Position numbers and translations under genes: made by a program
Part shown: piece after piece, positions 2,641-38,274 of the stretch
Layout of the letters: each line of letters opens with the position of its first letter
Position numbering within the stretch: position 1 is the first letter of the stretch
DNA from: Candidatus Saccharibacteria bacterium RIFCSPHIGHO2_12_FULL_47_16b
GTDB taxonomy: Bacteria > Patescibacteriota > Saccharimonadia > Saccharimonadales > UBA10212
NCBI GenBank assembly: GCA_001790525.1
Contig: MGCU01000002.1
Coordinates: 1 to 38,274 of the forward strand
Reading direction: 5' to 3'
Length of the DNA: 38,274 bases
Notes under the pieces: model-generated
Seen by the model: the letters and a program-made list of their open reading frames with translations, nothing else
The model's database searches: none
Told to the model about the DNA's origin: nothing

Positions 2641-2930
2641 AAGAGTTCTCCTTTCTGTCTCGATAGAGACACCCCGCTTATTTTCAGGGCGTTAGTAGTC
2701 TGCAATCAGATTACGAGAGCACCTGTAAAATGGGCGGGGTTCCGACTATACGGCCGATCCATGATTTCCACATGGTCACCCCTACTTTTGAGCAGAGTCG
2801 ACGATTTTTACGTCCGATTGGCGAATTACACGCCACCCACGAAGACTTAATTGTTAACTCATCCATAATAGCAAAAGCACAGGCGGCGGTGGCATTAAAA
2901 GTCATAGAGTGCTAAAATTACCCCTGTTAA

Positions 2931-6516: not shown

Positions 6517-6581
6517 AGCGACTGATTGTTACCATTAGCAATTAATCTTTAGCTATCCGACTGCTAAAATACTGCTGTTTA

Positions 6582-6596
6582 CAAGGACCGTCCTTG
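6582..6596. repeat. REP palindrome CAAGGACCGTCCTTG upstream of the RAYT gene
   Basis: 7-bp arms around one central base. Confidence 0.85.
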
Positions 6597-6609
6597 AAAT
6601 GGAGTGTCA

Positions 6610-7230
6610 ATGCCAAGCCGGAACAGAGTAAAAGAATATGTCCCTGATAGCTACTACCATATTTATAACCGTGGCGTTAACAAACGGCGCATCTTTATCG
6701 ATGACCAAGATTATGCAGTCTTCCTTAACCTACTCAAGCGTTATTTAGACAGCAAGCCAACCAAAGACAAGCAGGGACGAGAATACGGCTGGTTGTATGG
6801 TCATCTAGAACTATTGGCTTTTTGTTTAGTACCTAATCATTTTCACCTGTTAATTTATCAGCGGGATCCCACTGCTATGACCCATTTGTTACGTGGTGTT
6901 GGAACTTCTTATTCGACTTATTTTAATAAAAAATATAAGCGTGTTGGTCCGCTTTTCCAAGAGCGCTTCAAAGCCAGCCGTATAAGTAAAGATGAGTACT
7001 TGCAACATATATCAAGGTACATTCATTTAAACCCGGAGAATTATCGGACTTGGGAATTTTCAAGTTTGCCATACTACTTGGGTAAAAAGCAGTCCGATTG
7101 GGTTAGACCCAAAATGATTCTAGATTTATTTGAAAGTGACGAGTACGAAAATTTTGTCTCAGACTATTTATCCTATAAACGGGAGCTCGATGGTATAAAG
7201 CACGAATTAGCAAATAGCGCGGATATATAG
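6610..7230 (+). mobile_element. REP-associated tyrosine (Y1_Tnp/RAYT) transposase gene
   Basis: DSYYHIYNRGVNKRRIF...FCLVPNHFHLLIYQ...HLLRGVGTSYSTYFNKKYKRVGPLFQERFKA...YIHLNPENY; HxH (HFH) motif; GGAG SD upstream. Confidence 0.9.
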
Positions 7231-7248: not shown

Positions 7249-7307
7249 CAAGGACCGTCCTTGTAAACAAGGGGTTATTAACAGATGTCCTGCAAGGACG
7301 GTCCTTG
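7249..7307. repeat. Paired REP (BIME-like): CAAGGACCGTCCTTG - 29 nt - CAAGGACGGTCCTTG
   Basis: Direct reading; downstream of the RAYT gene; 59 bp total. Confidence 0.85.
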
Positions 7308-7317
7308 TAAATAGGAG

Positions 7318-7752
7318 CTAACCGGTGATTTGTCTGAGGACGAAGCGGACCATGATTTGGGCCAGGGCGACAATTATTAGACCGATGATGGCATAAAGTA
7401 TGGTGTTTTTGGCACTAGTAACGGAGGTATCGCTGCCGCCGCTGGTGATGTAACGCAGGCCGCCAATGATAATCATGATGACGGCTACAATACCGACGAT
7501 TAACGACAAAGTGTTGATAACGCTACGGATAACCTTGTTGAATTTCTCGACGCCTGTATCGGTAGATGTAGCGCAGTTGCCATCGCTTAGCTGAAGATTA
7601 GCGCCGGCGCATAAGCCTTCTTGAATTACTTGATCGGGAGTTTTATTGGAGATGTCCTGAGCGAAAGTTTTGGGATTCAAAGCGGAAAAGCTAAAGACAG
7701 TCAAAGCCAAAAAACTAGCAACAATGAATAACGTCCGACTTAAAACACCCAT
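7318..7752 (-). CDS. T4SS pilin-like (VirB2/TrbC-type) small membrane protein, paralog 1
   Basis: Signal peptide plus TM pair SLIVGIVAVIMIIIGGLRYITSGGSDTSVTSAKNTILYAIIGLIIVALAQIMVRFVLRQ. Confidence 0.8.
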   Translation of the reverse strand: MGVLSRTLFIVASFLALTVFSFSALNPKTFAQDISNKTPDQVIQEGLCAGANLQLSDGNCATSTDTGVEKFNKVIRSVINTLSLIVGIVAVIMIIIGGLRYITSGGSDTSVTSAKNTILYAIIGLIIVALAQIMVRFVLRQITG

Positions 7753-7795
7753 GCTCTGAATTATAGGGCATGGGTGTTTGGGATTCTAGGATGGT

Positions 7796-8224
7796 CTAAG
7801 TAGCACCCTTTAGGACAAACTGGACGATGGCTTGGGCCAGTGCCACAATGATCAAACCGATGATGGCATAGAGGATGGTGTTTTTGGCGGCTGTGATACT
7901 CTCTTGTTTGCCGCCGCTAGCTACGTAGCGCAGGCCACCGTAGATTATCATGATGACAGCCACGACGGCGATTACTGCCGATAGGATGTTGATAACACTC
8001 TTTATCTTGGCGCTTAAGCCCTCATCTGATCTTGCCGGAATCTCGCATTCATTTACCGATGTTTTGGGATCATCCCTTAAAGCAGCATTCGATCCACAAA
8101 TTAGGTTTTTCTGTATGCCTTCCTCGACGGTTTGGGCATAGGCTGGAACAGCCATAGCAACAGGTGCTCCTAGCGTTAGTACTGACGCTAGGATAATTAG
8201 TTTCTTTTTTATTTTTTGAATCAT
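7796..8224 (-). CDS. T4SS pilin-like small membrane protein, paralog 2
   Basis: VIMIIYGGLRYVASGGKQESITAAKNTILYAIIGLIIVALAQAIVQFVL. Confidence 0.8.
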   Translation of the reverse strand: MIQKIKKKLIILASVLTLGAPVAMAVPAYAQTVEEGIQKNLICGSNAALRDDPKTSVNECEIPARSDEGLSAKIKSVINILSAVIAVVAVIMIIYGGLRYVASGGKQESITAAKNTILYAIIGLIIVALAQAIVQFVLKGAT

Positions 8225-8302
8225 TTGATATTCCTTTAATTCTTTTTAGAATTATTTAACTATAAGCAGTTTATATCACAACCATGCCAGGTTTGGCAAT
8301 GA

Positions 8303-8818
8303 TTAGCATGGCTTCCCCTGATCGGGTCCACTATCCAAGCGGCCGTTAACACAGGTTGGGGTTGAACTTGATTGGGTGACTTCTGTGGCTTCACGCAGTA
8401 CAAAGTGGACGATGGCTTGGGCGAGAGCTACGACAATTAATCCGATAATGGCATAGAGGATGGTGTTTTTGGCGGCTGTTATGTTTTCCTGTTTACCAGC
8501 ACTAGCTACGTAGCGGAAGCCGCCAATGATAATCATGATGATGGCGATGATGCCAACGACGGCCGACAAAACATTAAGTATTTTTTTTATGGTGCTGCTT
8601 AATTTACCGGCGGATTCGGCGGAAATATCACTGACTTTCTGGCCTGTTACATCTTGACCGGCTGCGCCAGAAGCACCGCATTGCAGCGCTTCTTGAGGAG
8701 TCAAGTTACCTGCCTTACAGTCAATTTGCGCCGAACTTTGGCTAGGTATTAACAACAGGAATGAAAAGACAAAAACAGCAGCCAAAAATATTCGTAAAAT
8801 AAGTGACTTCATAGCCAT
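8303..8818 (-). CDS. T4SS pilin-like small membrane protein, paralog 3
   Basis: IIMIIIGGFRYVASAGKQENITAAKNTILYAIIGLIVVALAQAIVHFVLRE. Confidence 0.8.
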   Translation of the reverse strand: MAMKSLILRIFLAAVFVFSFLLLIPSQSSAQIDCKAGNLTPQEALQCGASGAAGQDVTGQKVSDISAESAGKLSSTIKKILNVLSAVVGIIAIIMIIIGGFRYVASAGKQENITAAKNTILYAIIGLIVVALAQAIVHFVLREATEVTQSSSTPTCVNGRLDSGPDQGKPC

Positions 8819-8821
8819 AGA

Positions 8822-9382
8822 TTAACCTATTATTCTTGTGTTAACAAAGGTCACGATTAGCCAGGCAAAGGCCACGATAATCATGCCGGTTAAGGCACTA
8901 GTGATAATAGTGCGGGCTTGGCGGGCTCGGGTCGGGCTATCGGTTGCCCGTTGGCCGCCAATACTGCCACCGGCCGTGACAAAGACATAGCCGCCATAGA
9001 CAATCAGAATGGTGCCGCCAACTGCCGCTACCAGGGCAAAAACGTTGGCAACTTGCTGGAGTATACCTTTGGGGCCGGCAATCGGATTCTGGTCGGAAGT
9101 CTTCTGTTCTTCAACCTGCTGGCAGGCCGGGCTGTTTTGAGCCGCGAGGTTCCTGGGATCGCAAGCTTGCTCGAACAGATTTGCCTGGGCATTGGTTTTT
9201 GGTGCAAACATAAATAATGAAATTATAGTTAATAGACAAAGGCCAAAAAGAACTAGCTGTTTTTTAATCTGTTTCAAGTACGGTCCTTGTAAAAAAGGGG
9301 TTTTTAACAGATGTCTTACAAGGACCGTCCTTGAAAATAGCGGGTGTAACATTTTTTTTAATTGTGATAGCCAAGAGGTCAT
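8822..9382 (-). CDS. T4SS pilin-like small membrane protein, paralog 4; true start may be TTG at 9277
   Basis: ILIVYGGYVFVTAGG...ARTIITSALTGMIIVAFAWLIVTFVNTRIIG; N-terminal part of the ORF overlaps a REP pair. Confidence 0.75.
   Translation of the reverse strand: MTSWLSQLKKMLHPLFSRTVLVRHLLKTPFLQGPYLKQIKKQLVLFGLCLLTIISLFMFAPKTNAQANLFEQACDPRNLAAQNSPACQQVEEQKTSDQNPIAGPKGILQQVANVFALVAAVGGTILIVYGGYVFVTAGGSIGGQRATDSPTRARQARTIITSALTGMIIVAFAWLIVTFVNTRIIG
9275..9333. repeat. Second paired REP (BIME-like), 59 bp, inside the 5' part of pilin-like paralog 4
   Basis: CAAGTACGGTCCTTG - TAAAAAAGGGGTTTTTAACAGATGTCTTA - CAAGGACCGTCCTTG; same length and spacer as 7249..7307. Confidence 0.85.
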
Positions 9383-15600: not shown

Positions 15601-16539
15601 ATGGCAGTATATAAAGTTTTGCAGGATGTGGAGGCCGAGGACAAGCTAGTCGGGCCGCTGACGCTCAAAGGCTTTATTTATGCGGTGGCGGCTGGGCTGT
15701 TGGCCTTTATTAATTTTAAGTTACTAATAACTGGTGGGACGATTAAATGGCTGTTTATTCTGCTGTTTTTGCCGCTGATGGTCTTGTTTGGCGTGTTGGC
15801 TTCGCCACTCGGCCGGCAGCAGCCAACCGAAGTCTGGCTGCTGGCCCGAATTAAGTTTATGTTTAAACCGCGCCGACGCTTATGGGATCAAACCGGCATC
15901 AGTAAATTGGTAACCATTACCGCCCCGCCCAAAATAGAGCAACCACACACTAAAGGCCTAAGCGAAACCGAGGTAAAAAGCCGTTTGCAAACTTTGGCCA
16001 TTACTTTGGACAGCCGCGGCTGGGCCATCAAAAACCTGTCGTTACCGCTAGTTCGGGAGGATACGGACAGGTTAATTGCTCCGACCACCACTTCATCAGT
16101 TGCCGAAACGGTAGATATTGATCCGGCCGATGACATCTTGGATGAAAAAAACAATCCGACCGCCCAGAACTTTGTAGCTCTGATGGAGGAAGCCGACGCC
16201 GCTCGAAAGTTGAGCGTTGCCAATGAACTAACTCAAGCTAAACAGATAGTTGCCAACCCCGCCCCTTCTCAAAAAGAGCGGGGCGCGAGGCCTCCGGCAC
16301 AAGAGGTGACCCCGCAGCAAAAACTTGGGGCTCCGCAATCCGATTACCGACTGCTTCGCCCAAGTTTTGCAACGGGGCAGGTAGGCCAATCCCAGATGAC
16401 AGATAAAAACAGAGCTGATAAACTGGAGCTAGCCCAAAGCGGTAGTGCTTTTAGCGTGGCGACGGTTGCTAAATTAGCTAACCGAACGAGTATTCAGCAA
16501 CTTGGTCCGAACGAGGTGCTGATCTCGCTCCACGCTTAG
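15601..16539 (+). CDS. PrgI-family T4SS membrane protein with C-terminal extension
   Basis: YKVLQDVEAEDKLVGPLTLKGFIYAVAAGLLAFINFKLL...LPLMVLFGVLASPLGRQQPTEVWLLARIKFMFKPRRRLWDQTG. Confidence 0.8.
   Translation: MAVYKVLQDVEAEDKLVGPLTLKGFIYAVAAGLLAFINFKLLITGGTIKWLFILLFLPLMVLFGVLASPLGRQQPTEVWLLARIKFMFKPRRRLWDQTGISKLVTITAPPKIEQPHTKGLSETEVKSRLQTLAITLDSRGWAIKNLSLPLVREDTDRLIAPTTTSSVAETVDIDPADDILDEKNNPTAQNFVALMEEADAARKLSVANELTQAKQIVANPAPSQKERGARPPAQEVTPQQKLGAPQSDYRLLRPSFATGQVGQSQMTDKNRADKLELAQSGSAFSVATVAKLANRTSIQQLGPNEVLISLHA
16310..16377 (+). repeat. 68-bp palindromic protein-coding repeat, copy A (inside PrgI-like gene)
   Basis: CCCCGCAGCAAAAACTTGGGGCTCCGCAATCCGATTACCGACTGCTTCGCCCAAGTTTTGCAACGGGG; 56/68 identical to the reverse complement of 34215..34282. 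Confidence 0.9.
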
Positions 16540-33429: not shown

Positions 33430-33849
33430 ATGAGAACAGAACGCGATTTTTCCCCTGATATGGTTGAAATACGTCGGCAGAGATTCGATAACATAATAGG
33501 TCAACCAGCATATTTTTTTGCCGAGGATGTAATGATTAACCCTTTTGGGGACAAGCCGGGTGTGCCAATACCAGATTATCAACGAGCGCAGTCAGACGGG
33601 CCGAAGAAGGGCCTATTAGTACAGGGCATAGTCGAGGGAACAGAAATGGTTTTTACTCCTCAATACTTCCGAGATCTAACTGAACCAGTATGGGTAGTCC
33701 ACCTAAGACATACGGAAGTGTCTAAAGAAAACGGCAAGCACATTCATTTTTCCGTCGATGGGCCAAGATCTCTTGTCAGAATTGATAGAATTTATGGCTG
33801 GTACGATTCTCGAGAAGCGGATCTACTAGATGAAACCATCGCAGCTTAA
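33430..33849 (+). CDS. Hypothetical protein
   Basis: 139 aa ORF, no family recognised. Confidence 0.6.
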   Translation: MRTERDFSPDMVEIRRQRFDNIIGQPAYFFAEDVMINPFGDKPGVPIPDYQRAQSDGPKKGLLVQGIVEGTEMVFTPQYFRDLTEPVWVVHLRHTEVSKENGKHIHFSVDGPRSLVRIDRIYGWYDSREADLLDETIAA

Positions 33850-35012
33850 TTCAAGATTGATTTGTAAATTTCGAGGGTTTGTTCGGCCGTCTTCCGCCAA
33901 GAATATTTGGCGGCTTGGGCATGGCCGCGGGCAATAAGATTGGTACTTAAATTAAAATTATCCAAGACCTGGCCGATTTTGGTGGCCATATCTTCGCTGT
34001 CAAGTGAGTTAAAGTAGTGGGCGGCCTCGCCATAAATTTCCGGCAGGCAGCTGGCATTACTAGAAACTACCGGCGCACCATGAATCATTGCTTCCAAGCC
34101 GGGCAGGCCAAAACCTTCGGACAGAGAAGGGAAGACGTAAGCCGCCGTATTTTCATAAAGCCAACGTAGCTGCCCATCACTGACCCAACCCAAAAATAAT
34201 ATTTTACTTGCTTGCCCCTTACCAAAACCTGAACGGAGCAGTCGGTAATCGGATTGCGGAGTGTCAAGTTTTTGGTGTGGGGTTAAGCTTTTGGATTCGA
34301 CGTATTGGGCGAGCAATTCAAAGTTTTTGTCCGGCTGGCCAGCCAAAACCAGTTTCAAATCGGGCTGGTCTCTTCGAACCATTGCAAAGGCATTAATCAG
34401 TCGGTTCAAATTTTTATGCGGATTGGCCCGGCCAACATACATAATGAATTTTTGGTCGTCCAGTTCGGCTATTGGCTCGGGCTGAACTTCAATTTTATCG
34501 GCAGCCTCGTAGATAACTTCGATTTTGTCTGGATCAATATTGGTATATTGTGCGACATCGTTTTTTACGAATTCGCTTGAGGTTATTAGCTTTTGCGATT
34601 TTTTAGCAACTTTTTTGATTAGCCAACGGTAGACAGTCTGTTTGGATTTAAAAATTAGTTGGTTTTTGGCTGGATTGTCAAAACGAGCTGTAGTTAGGTC
34701 GTGAATTGTTGTGACGGTCCTACCTTTGTAAAAGGCCGGTTGCTGGGTCATGCCAAAATGAACCAGATCCGGGCGCAAATTATTCAATTGTCGTAGCAAG
34801 CCAATTTGCTCGGCCGAAGAAAATTCTTTGTATGGGCTTTCAATAATCTCAAAATTTGGGACTTTTTTTTCTAAGAACTTGACGCGCGACGGTTTGGCTA
34901 AAAGTACAATCTCAAAACCGGGCTTGAGCCGATGCAAATTCTCGACCAATTTATCTATATAACGGCCAGTACTACTACCTGATTCCCGCGCGTCTATGAC
35001 AATACGTTTCAT
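33846..35012 (-). CDS. GT4-type glycosyltransferase
   Basis: VIDARESGSSTGRYIDKLVENL...FIMYVGRANPHKNLNRLINAFAMV...KLVLAGQ...PSLSEGFGLPGLEAMIHGAPVVSSNASCLPEIYGEAA. Confidence 0.93.
   Translation of the reverse strand: MKRIVIDARESGSSTGRYIDKLVENLHRLKPGFEIVLLAKPSRVKFLEKKVPNFEIIESPYKEFSSAEQIGLLRQLNNLRPDLVHFGMTQQPAFYKGRTVTTIHDLTTARFDNPAKNQLIFKSKQTVYRWLIKKVAKKSQKLITSSEFVKNDVAQYTNIDPDKIEVIYEAADKIEVQPEPIAELDDQKFIMYVGRANPHKNLNRLINAFAMVRRDQPDLKLVLAGQPDKNFELLAQYVESKSLTPHQKLDTPQSDYRLLRSGFGKGQASKILFLGWVSDGQLRWLYENTAAYVFPSLSEGFGLPGLEAMIHGAPVVSSNASCLPEIYGEAAHYFNSLDSEDMATKIGQVLDNFNLSTNLIARGHAQAAKYSWRKTAEQTLEIYKSILN
34215..34282 (-). repeat. 68-bp palindromic protein-coding repeat, copy B (inside glycosyltransferase gene)
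   Basis: Minus strand CCCCACACCAAAAACTTGACACTCCGCAATCCGATTACCGACTGCTCCGTTCAGGTTTTGGTAAGGGG; same length and frame as 16310..16377. Confidence 0.9.
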
Positions 35013-36472: not shown

Positions 36473-38274
36473 ATGAGTTTGATTAATAAAGCAGTGGCAG
36501 GAGGCGTCGGGATTCTGTCGAGCGTATTAGTATTTGGACCGACAGCGCTGGCCGCGTCTACCTTTACCGATCATCTGTGGGAGTTTTCGTCTAGCCCGGC
36601 CACGTTTAACATGATCAACTTCCAAAAAAGCAGCTATATTTACGACAATGATGACCTCCACCTAGTTTCCCGCAATTTCATTTTCCTCGATACGCCTCTA
36701 TCAATGGCTAGTGGCGCTCTTGCCACCCAAGGCGCAGTCTACTTCTATAACGCTGGAGCCTATACCGGTTCATACATTGTTAATAACGGCTCGGCTTTAC
36801 ACATGACCTCAACCTCCAGCATCTTCTTGAATGCTCCGGGCGGAGTAACTTTGCCGGATGGTTCAGTTTCTAGCGCCGAGATCCTCGACGGCACCATTGC
36901 CGACGCTGACACTAATGGCGCGCTTACTGGCGCCGCTCTGGCTGCCGATACTTTGACAGCTGGTGATCTAGCTGCCGATTCAGTTGCGGCTTCCGAGATT
37001 GCCACTGGCGCTGTAACTACCACAGAGATCTTGGATGGTACAGTAGCCTCAGCCGACATCGCTGACGGCACAGTAACTTCAGCCGACATCGCTGACGGCA
37101 CAATCGTCTCCGGCGATGTAGCTGCCGATACTCTTACTGCTGCTAACTTGGCCGCTGGCTCAGTTGGAACTAGTGAAATCGCCGATGGCTCGGTTGCCGA
37201 CGCAGACACTAACGGTGCTTTGACTGGTGCAGCTTTAGCGGCTGACACACTGACAGCTGCTGATTTGGCCGCTGGCTCAGTTGGAACTAGTGAAATCGCC
37301 GATGGCAGCGTTGCCTCAGCTGACATAGCTGACGGTACTATCGCCGACGCTGACACTAACGGTGCCTTAACTGGCGCCGCCTTAGCCGCTGACACCCTAG
37401 TCGCTGGCGACATTGCCACCGGCGCCGTGACTACCGATGAAATCTTCAACGGCACGATTGCCGATGTCGACACCAATGGACTCCTCACTGGTGCATCACT
37501 GGCACCTGACACACTATCCGATGGCGACATTGCCGACAATTCCTTAACAGCCGCCAGTTTAGCTGATGACTCCGTCGCCGCTGGTGAAATCGCCGCCGGT
37601 GCAGTTGGTACCAGCGAGATTGCCGATGGTACAGTCGCCTCAGCTGATATCGCCGCCAACACTATAGTTGACGCCGATGTTGGAGTTGACGCTTTGACAG
37701 CCGCTGCCCTAGCGGCTGGATCCGTAACCGCCAGTGAACTTGCTGACGCCTCTGTCGTAGGTGGTCTAGCTGGTGATGTTTCGGATAACACCCTAACTGC
37801 CGATGACATTGCTGCTAGCGCTGTTGGTACTTCAGAGATTGCCGATGGCACAGTCGCCTCGGCTGACATTGCCGATGGGGCTGTCGCCAGCGCCGATATA
37901 GCTGACGGTACAGTTACCGGCACCGACATCGCTGACGGCACCATCGCCGACGCCGACACTAACGGTGCCCTGACCGGCGCCGCTTTAGCTGACAATTCGC
38001 TATCCGATGGCGACATCGCCGACAACTCCCTGACAGCTCTTAGCTTAGCCGATAATTCAGTCGCCGCCGGTGAGATTGCTGCAAGTGCAGTTGGCACCAG
38101 CGAAATTGCTGACGGTACGGTTGGTGCGGTCGATCTTGCAATCGATAGCATTGACTACACTCACCTAAACTTGGCTCTTGGCGCCGCTCCGGTAGCTAGT
38201 GTCGAGGCTGGTGACCTTTACTTCGACACAGTAGCTAATACCGCCTATGTCCGAAATAACGTTAACGACACTTG
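36473..38274 (+). CDS. Secreted repeat protein, 3'-truncated by window end (pentapeptide-like beta-solenoid)
   Basis: AAGGAGG SD then ATG; signal peptide MSLINKAVAGGVGILSSVLVFGPTALAA; repeats such as ADLAAGSVGTSEIADGTVASADIADGT; open to the window end so absent from the ORF track. Confidence 0.85.
   Translation, partial: MSLINKAVAGGVGILSSVLVFGPTALAASTFTDHLWEFSSSPATFNMINFQKSSYIYDNDDLHLVSRNFIFLDTPLSMASGALATQGAVYFYNAGAYTGSYIVNNGSALHMTSTSSIFLNAPGGVTLPDGSVSSAEILDGTIADADTNGALTGAALAADTLTAGDLAADSVAASEIATGAVTTTEILDGTVASADIADGTVTSADIADGTIVSGDVAADTLTAANLAAGSVGTSEIADGSVADADTNGALTGAALAADTLTAADLAAGSVGTSEIADGSVASADIADGTIADADTNGALTGAALAADTLVAGDIATGAVTTDEIFNGTIADVDTNGLLTGASLAPDTLSDGDIADNSLTAASLADDSVAAGEIAAGAVGTSEIADGTVASADIAANTIVDADVGVDALTAAALAAGSVTASELADASVVGGLAGDVSDNTLTADDIAASAVGTSEIADGTVASADIADGAVASADIADGTVTGTDIADGTIADADTNGALTGAALADNSLSDGDIADNSLTALSLADNSVAAGEIAASAVGTSEIADGTVGAVDLAIDSIDYTHLNLALGAAPVASVEAGDLYFDTVANTAYVRNNVNDT

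Follow-up and report, generated by a model that had tools for sequence, protein, structure and literature searches.

The stretch of DNA analysed here (the 'window', 38,274 nt) comprises positions 1 to 38,274 of the forward strand of contig MGCU01000002.1, from the 0.79-Mb genome of Candidatus Saccharibacteria bacterium RIFCSPHIGHO2_12_FULL_47_16b (assembly GCA_001790525.1; lineage Saccharimonadia; Saccharimonadales; UBA10212). Two of its genes, one encoding a PrgI-family protein and the other a family-4 glycosyltransferase ('GT4'), each harbor an in-frame copy of a palindromic repeat, here named R1, and a third, degenerate copy is also present (Table 1). An initial annotation had described the two coding segments as 68 bp long, 56/68 identical and built around a common 25-nt core, with arms that pair into a long hairpin and with translation in the same frame and orientation; all of these points were confirmed (the translations are VTPQQKLGAPQSDYRLLRPSFATGQV and LTPHQKLDTPQSDYRLLRSGFGKGQA). 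The core has two exact matches in the window, against an expectation of 0 in shuffled sequence.

Table 1. Coordinates of R1 copies, host genes and associated features, in the window and in stretches of other genomes (L numbers)
Feature	Location	Strand	Details
PrgI-family protein gene (host gene 1)	window 15601..16539	+	312 aa; Pfam PF12666 (9.5e-9); R1 in variable C-terminal linker
GT4 gene (host gene 2)	window 33846..35012	-	388 aa; Pfam PF00534
R1 copy c1	window 16310..16381	+	hairpin 16310-16377, unpaired tag CAGG 16378-16381; 72 nt; in frame in PrgI-like gene; 97.4 bits
R1 copy c2	window 34211..34282	-	hairpin 34215-34282, tag CAAG 34211-34214; 72 nt; in frame in GT4 gene; 97.1 bits
Third R1 copy, degenerate	window 2666..2743	-	CCCCGC...AATCTGATTGCAGACT...GCGGGG; intergenic; tag degraded; 28.3 bits, E 4e-5
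RAYT-like Y1 transposase gene (PF01797, P0003)	window 6604-7230	+	bordered on both sides by palindrome CAAGGACCGTCCTTG
Palindromes around Y1 gene	window 6578-6596, 7249-7267, 7293-7311		
Relative of the Y1 gene's 3' border	window 9273-9340		68-71 bp
463-aa ORF	window 36760-38151	-	several internal direct repeats, 80-89% identity
Region with direct repeats	window 7318-9382	-	80-89% identity
Small RNA gene	L130:2462-2645	-	
Small RNA gene	L044:1424-1605		
Small RNA gene	L174:1913-2095	-	
Small RNA gene, empty	L270, L273, L274		
Different palindromic insert in GT4 orthologue of G001	L064:1850-1919		about 24 codons (ACCAAGC...GCTTGGT)
Palindrome GCATGCCATGGCGACATGCCGTGG, inside R1 loops (two genomes) and apart from listed R1 copies	L167:1978-2016, L171:1976-2014, L176:2015-2053, L182:3270-3301		two genomes

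The anatomy of the element was read from a census of 150 distinct copies, taken from searched hits and fetched stretches of draft genomes. R1 is an imperfect hairpin of 67-68 bp (CCCC...GGGG) followed by an unpaired 3' CARG (CYTG on the other strand), for a total of 71-72 bp; the modal length is 72 nt, and most copies measure 70-80. Its ends are sharp, with flanks carrying at most about 0.15 bit versus 1.3-1.8 bits at the edges, and information reaches background directly outside CCC...GGGGCARG(C), the tail often being CARGC. By this measure the limits first assigned to the window copies, while correct for the hairpin, stop 4 nt short of the element, to which the unpaired tail belongs. The most constant part is the inner TCC-G[T/C]A-ATC..GACT-[A/G]C-TCC. 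The apex, by contrast, is modular: AATCYGATTRCNGACT occupies it in 91 copies, AATAGNNNTATTCNNNCTCTT (with covarying NNN) in about 35, and other small hairpins in the remainder. The palindrome GCATGCCATGGCGACATGCCGTGG (Table 1) lies within the loop of R1 copies in two genomes and is also found away from the listed copies, as if one palindrome had entered the apex of another. An integron attC site was considered and dropped on inspection, since in R1 the core of the apex is conserved and the arms are variable.

Pairing of the arms was examined in 70 aligned type-1 copies, with shuffled and slid alignments as controls. Pairs form in 82% of cells, and changes on both sides are seen in 176 cells, versus 60 in shuffled alignments and 36-72 in slid ones. 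Compensatory changes, first noticed between the two window copies, are thus far above either control. Such covariation may reflect selection on the hairpin, correction of the palindrome by template switching, or both.

A covariance model built from five copies was run on 16 genomes of the family, 392 genomes of the order and a sample of the phylum. For the genome of the window (G000), where BLAST finds six copies, the model lists 25 matches, equivalent to about 22 copies; 22 matches were returned for its congener (G001) and up to about 42 for G015, all three lists being subject to some weak or second-strand matches. The search for further copies that the initial annotation had called for thus yielded many dispersed copies, not two only. 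R1 is present in 10/16 genomes of the family and absent from the other six, and its carriers in the order (16/392) are those ten and a further six, from four other families, in which it is sparse. The phylum sample added almost nothing: a match in G482 (same class, another family) is credible and two more are weak. Outside its own family R1 is therefore sporadic, in five other families across the order and phylum samples. Exact matches to the core in GTDB genomes all belong to Candidatus Saccharibacteria; the core was not found, again by exact match only, in IMG/VR viral contigs, and a phage origin was rejected on that account. R1 also has no match in Rfam, nor does the RNA gene that carries it (described below), and it was accordingly rejected as a known RNA family.

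Within these genomes R1 is mostly an intergenic element. Among the 150 copies, 125 lie between called genes, eight are at the edge of a contig or stretch and 17 overlap ORFs that reach 90 aa or more, a number of them spurious, the intergenic share being about nine tenths; the calls are of long ORFs, to which frame-breaking insertions are invisible. The genes on either side of intergenic copies are tandem in 80 cases, divergent in 24 and convergent in 21, with a weak orientation bias (49:31). At least ten copies, however, are in frame in conserved proteins: PrgI-like and GT4 in G000, MurB, TsaB and Sua5/TsaC in G001, GDH in G002, RluD in G004, a MurC-like protein in G006, MnmA in G013 and, for a second time, MurB in G015. 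Terminal copies are found at TsaB N-termini and at one ComEC C-terminus.

The forward strand (..PQSDYRLLRSGF..) is read in PrgI, GT4 and the MurC-like protein, the reverse strand (PAPHQNLSGAVGNRIAERQVFGAG) in the MurB of G001, RluD, GDH, Sua5 and MnmA, and a second forward frame in TsaB. The main frames on both strands are usually free of stops, so a 72-nt insertion is predicted to add about 24 residues, and the predicted insert peptides in MurB, RluD or GT4 contain PHQNLSGAVGNR or PQSDYRLLR. By motif, R1 is 72 nt long in 8/9 of the census copies within coding sequences, whereas 41/125 of the other copies have a length divisible by 3; this bias is partly one of ascertainment, because a coding call needs an open frame. 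The frames are mostly open in intergenic copies as well, and openness is therefore a property of the element. That both window genes read R1 in one frame and one direction might suggest a conserved motif or domain of two related proteins, but this explanation has practically no chance of being correct: the hosts belong to unrelated families, other hosts read the opposite strand or another frame, most copies are intergenic, and the segment is missing from orthologues with empty sites.

Insert-free homologues are available for all of the conserved host proteins except PrgI. PrgI orthologues lack the R1 motif, and the PrgI copy alone proves little because the linker around it is variable in length. 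In GT4, the insert contributes about 24 residues (about 244-268), placed after a helix and ahead of the following beta strand; 11 family orthologues are without the insert, and their alignments break at its position. The AlphaFold model of this protein displays a confident glycosyltransferase fold (mean pLDDT 85.7), with most of the insert residues 246-267 below 50. The GT4 orthologue of G001 holds at the R1 site a different palindromic insert of about the same size, single-copy in the DNA examined, and an ancestral R1 common to the genus in GT4 was rejected for that reason.

MurB was compared at the DNA level: the site is empty in G000 and filled in G001, the difference being exactly 72 nt with an ambiguity of at most 2 bp. 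Across the empty and filled sites of MurB and of the RNA gene, any target duplication is limited to about 2 bp. G015 also has R1 at this MurB site, inserted the other way round, and other genera are empty there, which implies either two insertions at one spot or a copy that was lost or inverted. Insert-free homologues in the PDB are contiguous across the insert for MurB and show small gaps for RluD, Sua5 and MnmA, and wider unaligned stretches for GDH and the MurC-like protein, with both flanks aligned; for TsaB the insert-free comparison is a family orthologue in L170. Insert-free orthologues, proposed at the outset as a check, are thus in hand for GT4 and MurB, with PDB homologues serving for other hosts. 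Some of the empty sites could be mimicked by precise excision.

These sites also bear on whether R1 is a classical miniature element (MITE) moved by the DDE transposase of an insertion sequence. R1 is small, palindromic, dispersed and non-autonomous, and is found both in and between genes, as such an element would be; a MITE origin is nonetheless highly improbable, given that the empty sites compared at the DNA level reveal no target duplication beyond about 2 bp, that the unpaired tag is asymmetric and found at one end only, and that a non-exhaustive look identified no parent insertion sequence.

A further set of empty and filled sites is provided by a small RNA gene of the family, with a TTGACA..TAATA promoter, a closing stem (GCTTCGCGC/GCGCGAAG), a terminator and a variable interior that contains R1 in some genomes; it has no Rfam match even at E<1. 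The gene is empty in G001, G004 and G011, carries R1 forward in G000, G006 and G012 and in reverse in G010, and in G015 holds a core-less, near-perfect hairpin at the R1 site. The derivation of R1 from this gene, in the manner of a SINE, was rejected: three genomes have the gene without R1, and elsewhere R1 appears in both orientations.

Two other explanations start from the hairpin itself. R1 might primarily be a structured RNA regulator (a terminator, an mRNA stabiliser or a protein-binding hairpin) maintained by selection on RNA, with coding copies as by-products. The strong covariation would fit, as would the many copies directly past stops or ahead of starts, and an orthologous locus (putatively beside rplT) where two genera have the same arms, though not the same apex, in surroundings of about 80% identity. 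On the other side, the apex is freely replaceable among copies, gene context and orientation are inconsistent (with both orientations inside genes), R1 is missing from six of the 16 genomes of its own family, and Rfam holds no match, so that this account is very unlikely. Alternatively, R1 may have spread and been homogenised with no dedicated transposase, through template switching or repair at palindromes during replication, the arms covarying and the apex being replaced. This would explain the exchanged apex between unchanged arms at the locus just described, the near-identical copies of G010 that differ in their apices, and the core-less hairpin in the RNA gene of G015. Such a process accounts for local change, but not for a defined 72-nt unit, its tag conserved, reaching unrelated sites with precision, and this explanation is unlikely.

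R1 is, with high probability, a non-autonomous mobile palindromic repeat of Saccharibacteria. It inserts precisely and in either orientation, with a target duplication of at most about 2 bp, mostly between genes and also in an RNA gene and in frame in proteins. Host proteins would survive because the inserts land in tolerated loops, and selection would presumably remove the insertions that break the frame.

As to how R1 moves, its insertion is precise and leaves no appreciable target duplication, and it has a hairpin whose one end bears an unpaired tag; REP elements and IS200/IS605-type (HUH) transposition show the same features. By that analogy, the hairpin may be mobilised in trans, as single-stranded DNA, by a Y1 (RAYT-like) HUH transposase that reads hairpin and tag as happens with REPs, a mechanism that we put forward tentatively. 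RAYT-type Y1 transposases occur in 11/16 R1-bearing genomes versus 72/376 others (Fisher 3.7e-5 over the 392 genomes, kinship ignored); the association weakens beyond the family (p 0.10), and a Y1 gene is not necessary: G015, with the most R1 matches of all, has no detectable one. None of the Y1 genes examined is flanked by R1. They bear short palindromes of their own, as does the Y1 gene in the window and as do most family Y1 loci examined, and R1 lies near a Y1 gene, within the fetched stretch, in only 4 of the loci searched, where about 2 would be expected. A RAYT was set aside as the direct partner of R1 because, despite co-occurring, it has its own flanking palindromes and is not enriched near R1; for these reasons, and with no Y1 detected in G015, the mobiliser is something that we infer. 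Elsewhere in the window a relative of the 3' border of its Y1 gene recurs, and neighbouring small ORFs (around 7300-8800) have direct repeats between them and look like paralogues; direct repeats are also found within the 463-aa ORF (Table 1).

Rickettsia is the best-known setting for palindromic repeats that lie in frame in conserved genes. That the reduced, host-dependent Saccharibacteria have what seems to be an unrelated case of their own suggests that the process recurs in small genomes. R1 offers many new pairs of empty and filled sites for asking how proteins and RNAs tolerate abrupt inserts, and as a defined hairpin with a tag it lends itself to tests with the RAYT-like proteins encoded in the genomes that carry it. 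Where a Saccharibacterial protein has an insertion of about 24 residues with no explanation, its source can be repeat DNA, a point that affects annotation and structure modelling. Elements of this kind in Saccharibacteria were not described in the literature that was searched, subscription papers and preprints being outside its reach.

Three kinds of known element come close to R1. REPs and BIMEs resemble it in their hairpin, which has four unpaired nucleotides at one end, in a mostly intergenic location and in the lack of target duplication (PMC3733652); RAYT-like genes are present in many R1 genomes, and pairs of R1 copies lie close together in places (L014). R1 differs, however, in its longer stem (5-13 bp in REPs), in a tag that matches neither GTAG nor CGTC (PMC3733652), and in not flanking a RAYT gene to form a REPtron, the RAYT genes here being bordered by other short palindromes. 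In that respect the Saccharibacterial genes recall those RAYTs that are flanked by unrelated inverted repeats (PMC3733652). The coding MITEs of bacteria (ERIC/RU-1, RU-2 and Correia; PMC2229807, PMC2759123) are likewise small non-autonomous repeats whose frames become fused to host genes, but they possess terminal inverted repeats and target duplications, of which R1 has none longer than about 2 bp.

R1 also resembles the Rickettsia palindromic elements (RPEs; Ogata et al. 2000), which are palindromes scattered through the genome; some RPEs lie in frame in conserved genes, and others have inserted in tmRNA and RNase P RNA (PMC2229807). R1 is likewise a dispersed palindrome in the reduced genome of a host-associated bacterium, with intergenic copies, in-frame copies in conserved genes, open frames inside the element and insertions in an RNA gene (a small one, with no Rfam name). 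An RPE-like reading, that of a coding palindrome inserted in frame in a different lineage and with a different sequence, had been proposed from the two window copies. It is upheld by the many copies, the insert-free orthologues and the compensatory changes, nor is the peptide a domain motif; it is refined in that the element measures 72 nt, CARG tag included, that both strands and a second frame are used, and that the PrgI copy lies in a length-variable linker. The differences are also plain: 71-72 bp versus the 105-146 bp reviewed for RPEs (PMC2229807, PMC10969869), a CARG/CYTG tag versus CGTC (R. conorii RPEs end in CGTC, and REPs in GTAG or CGTC; PMC3733652), several usable frames on both strands, a replaceable apex, and Patescibacteria versus Alphaproteobacteria. 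With a tag other than GTAG or CGTC and a length below that of RPE-1, R1 is filed as neither RPE nor REP. It could conceivably found a third superfamily of tagged palindromes in prokaryotes, CYTG-tagged and Patescibacterial: a modular hairpin with fixed recognition parts (arms, TCC internal loops and tag) and an apex exchanged or filled by other palindromes, which would insert as single-stranded DNA and would independently have provided essential enzymes with peptide inserts and a structural RNA with hairpins, in some cases twice at one site; this wider proposal is doubtful as it stands. R1 works like an RPE, differing in length, tag and lineage, and no membership among the RPEs is claimed for it, the reported length and the tag setting it apart.
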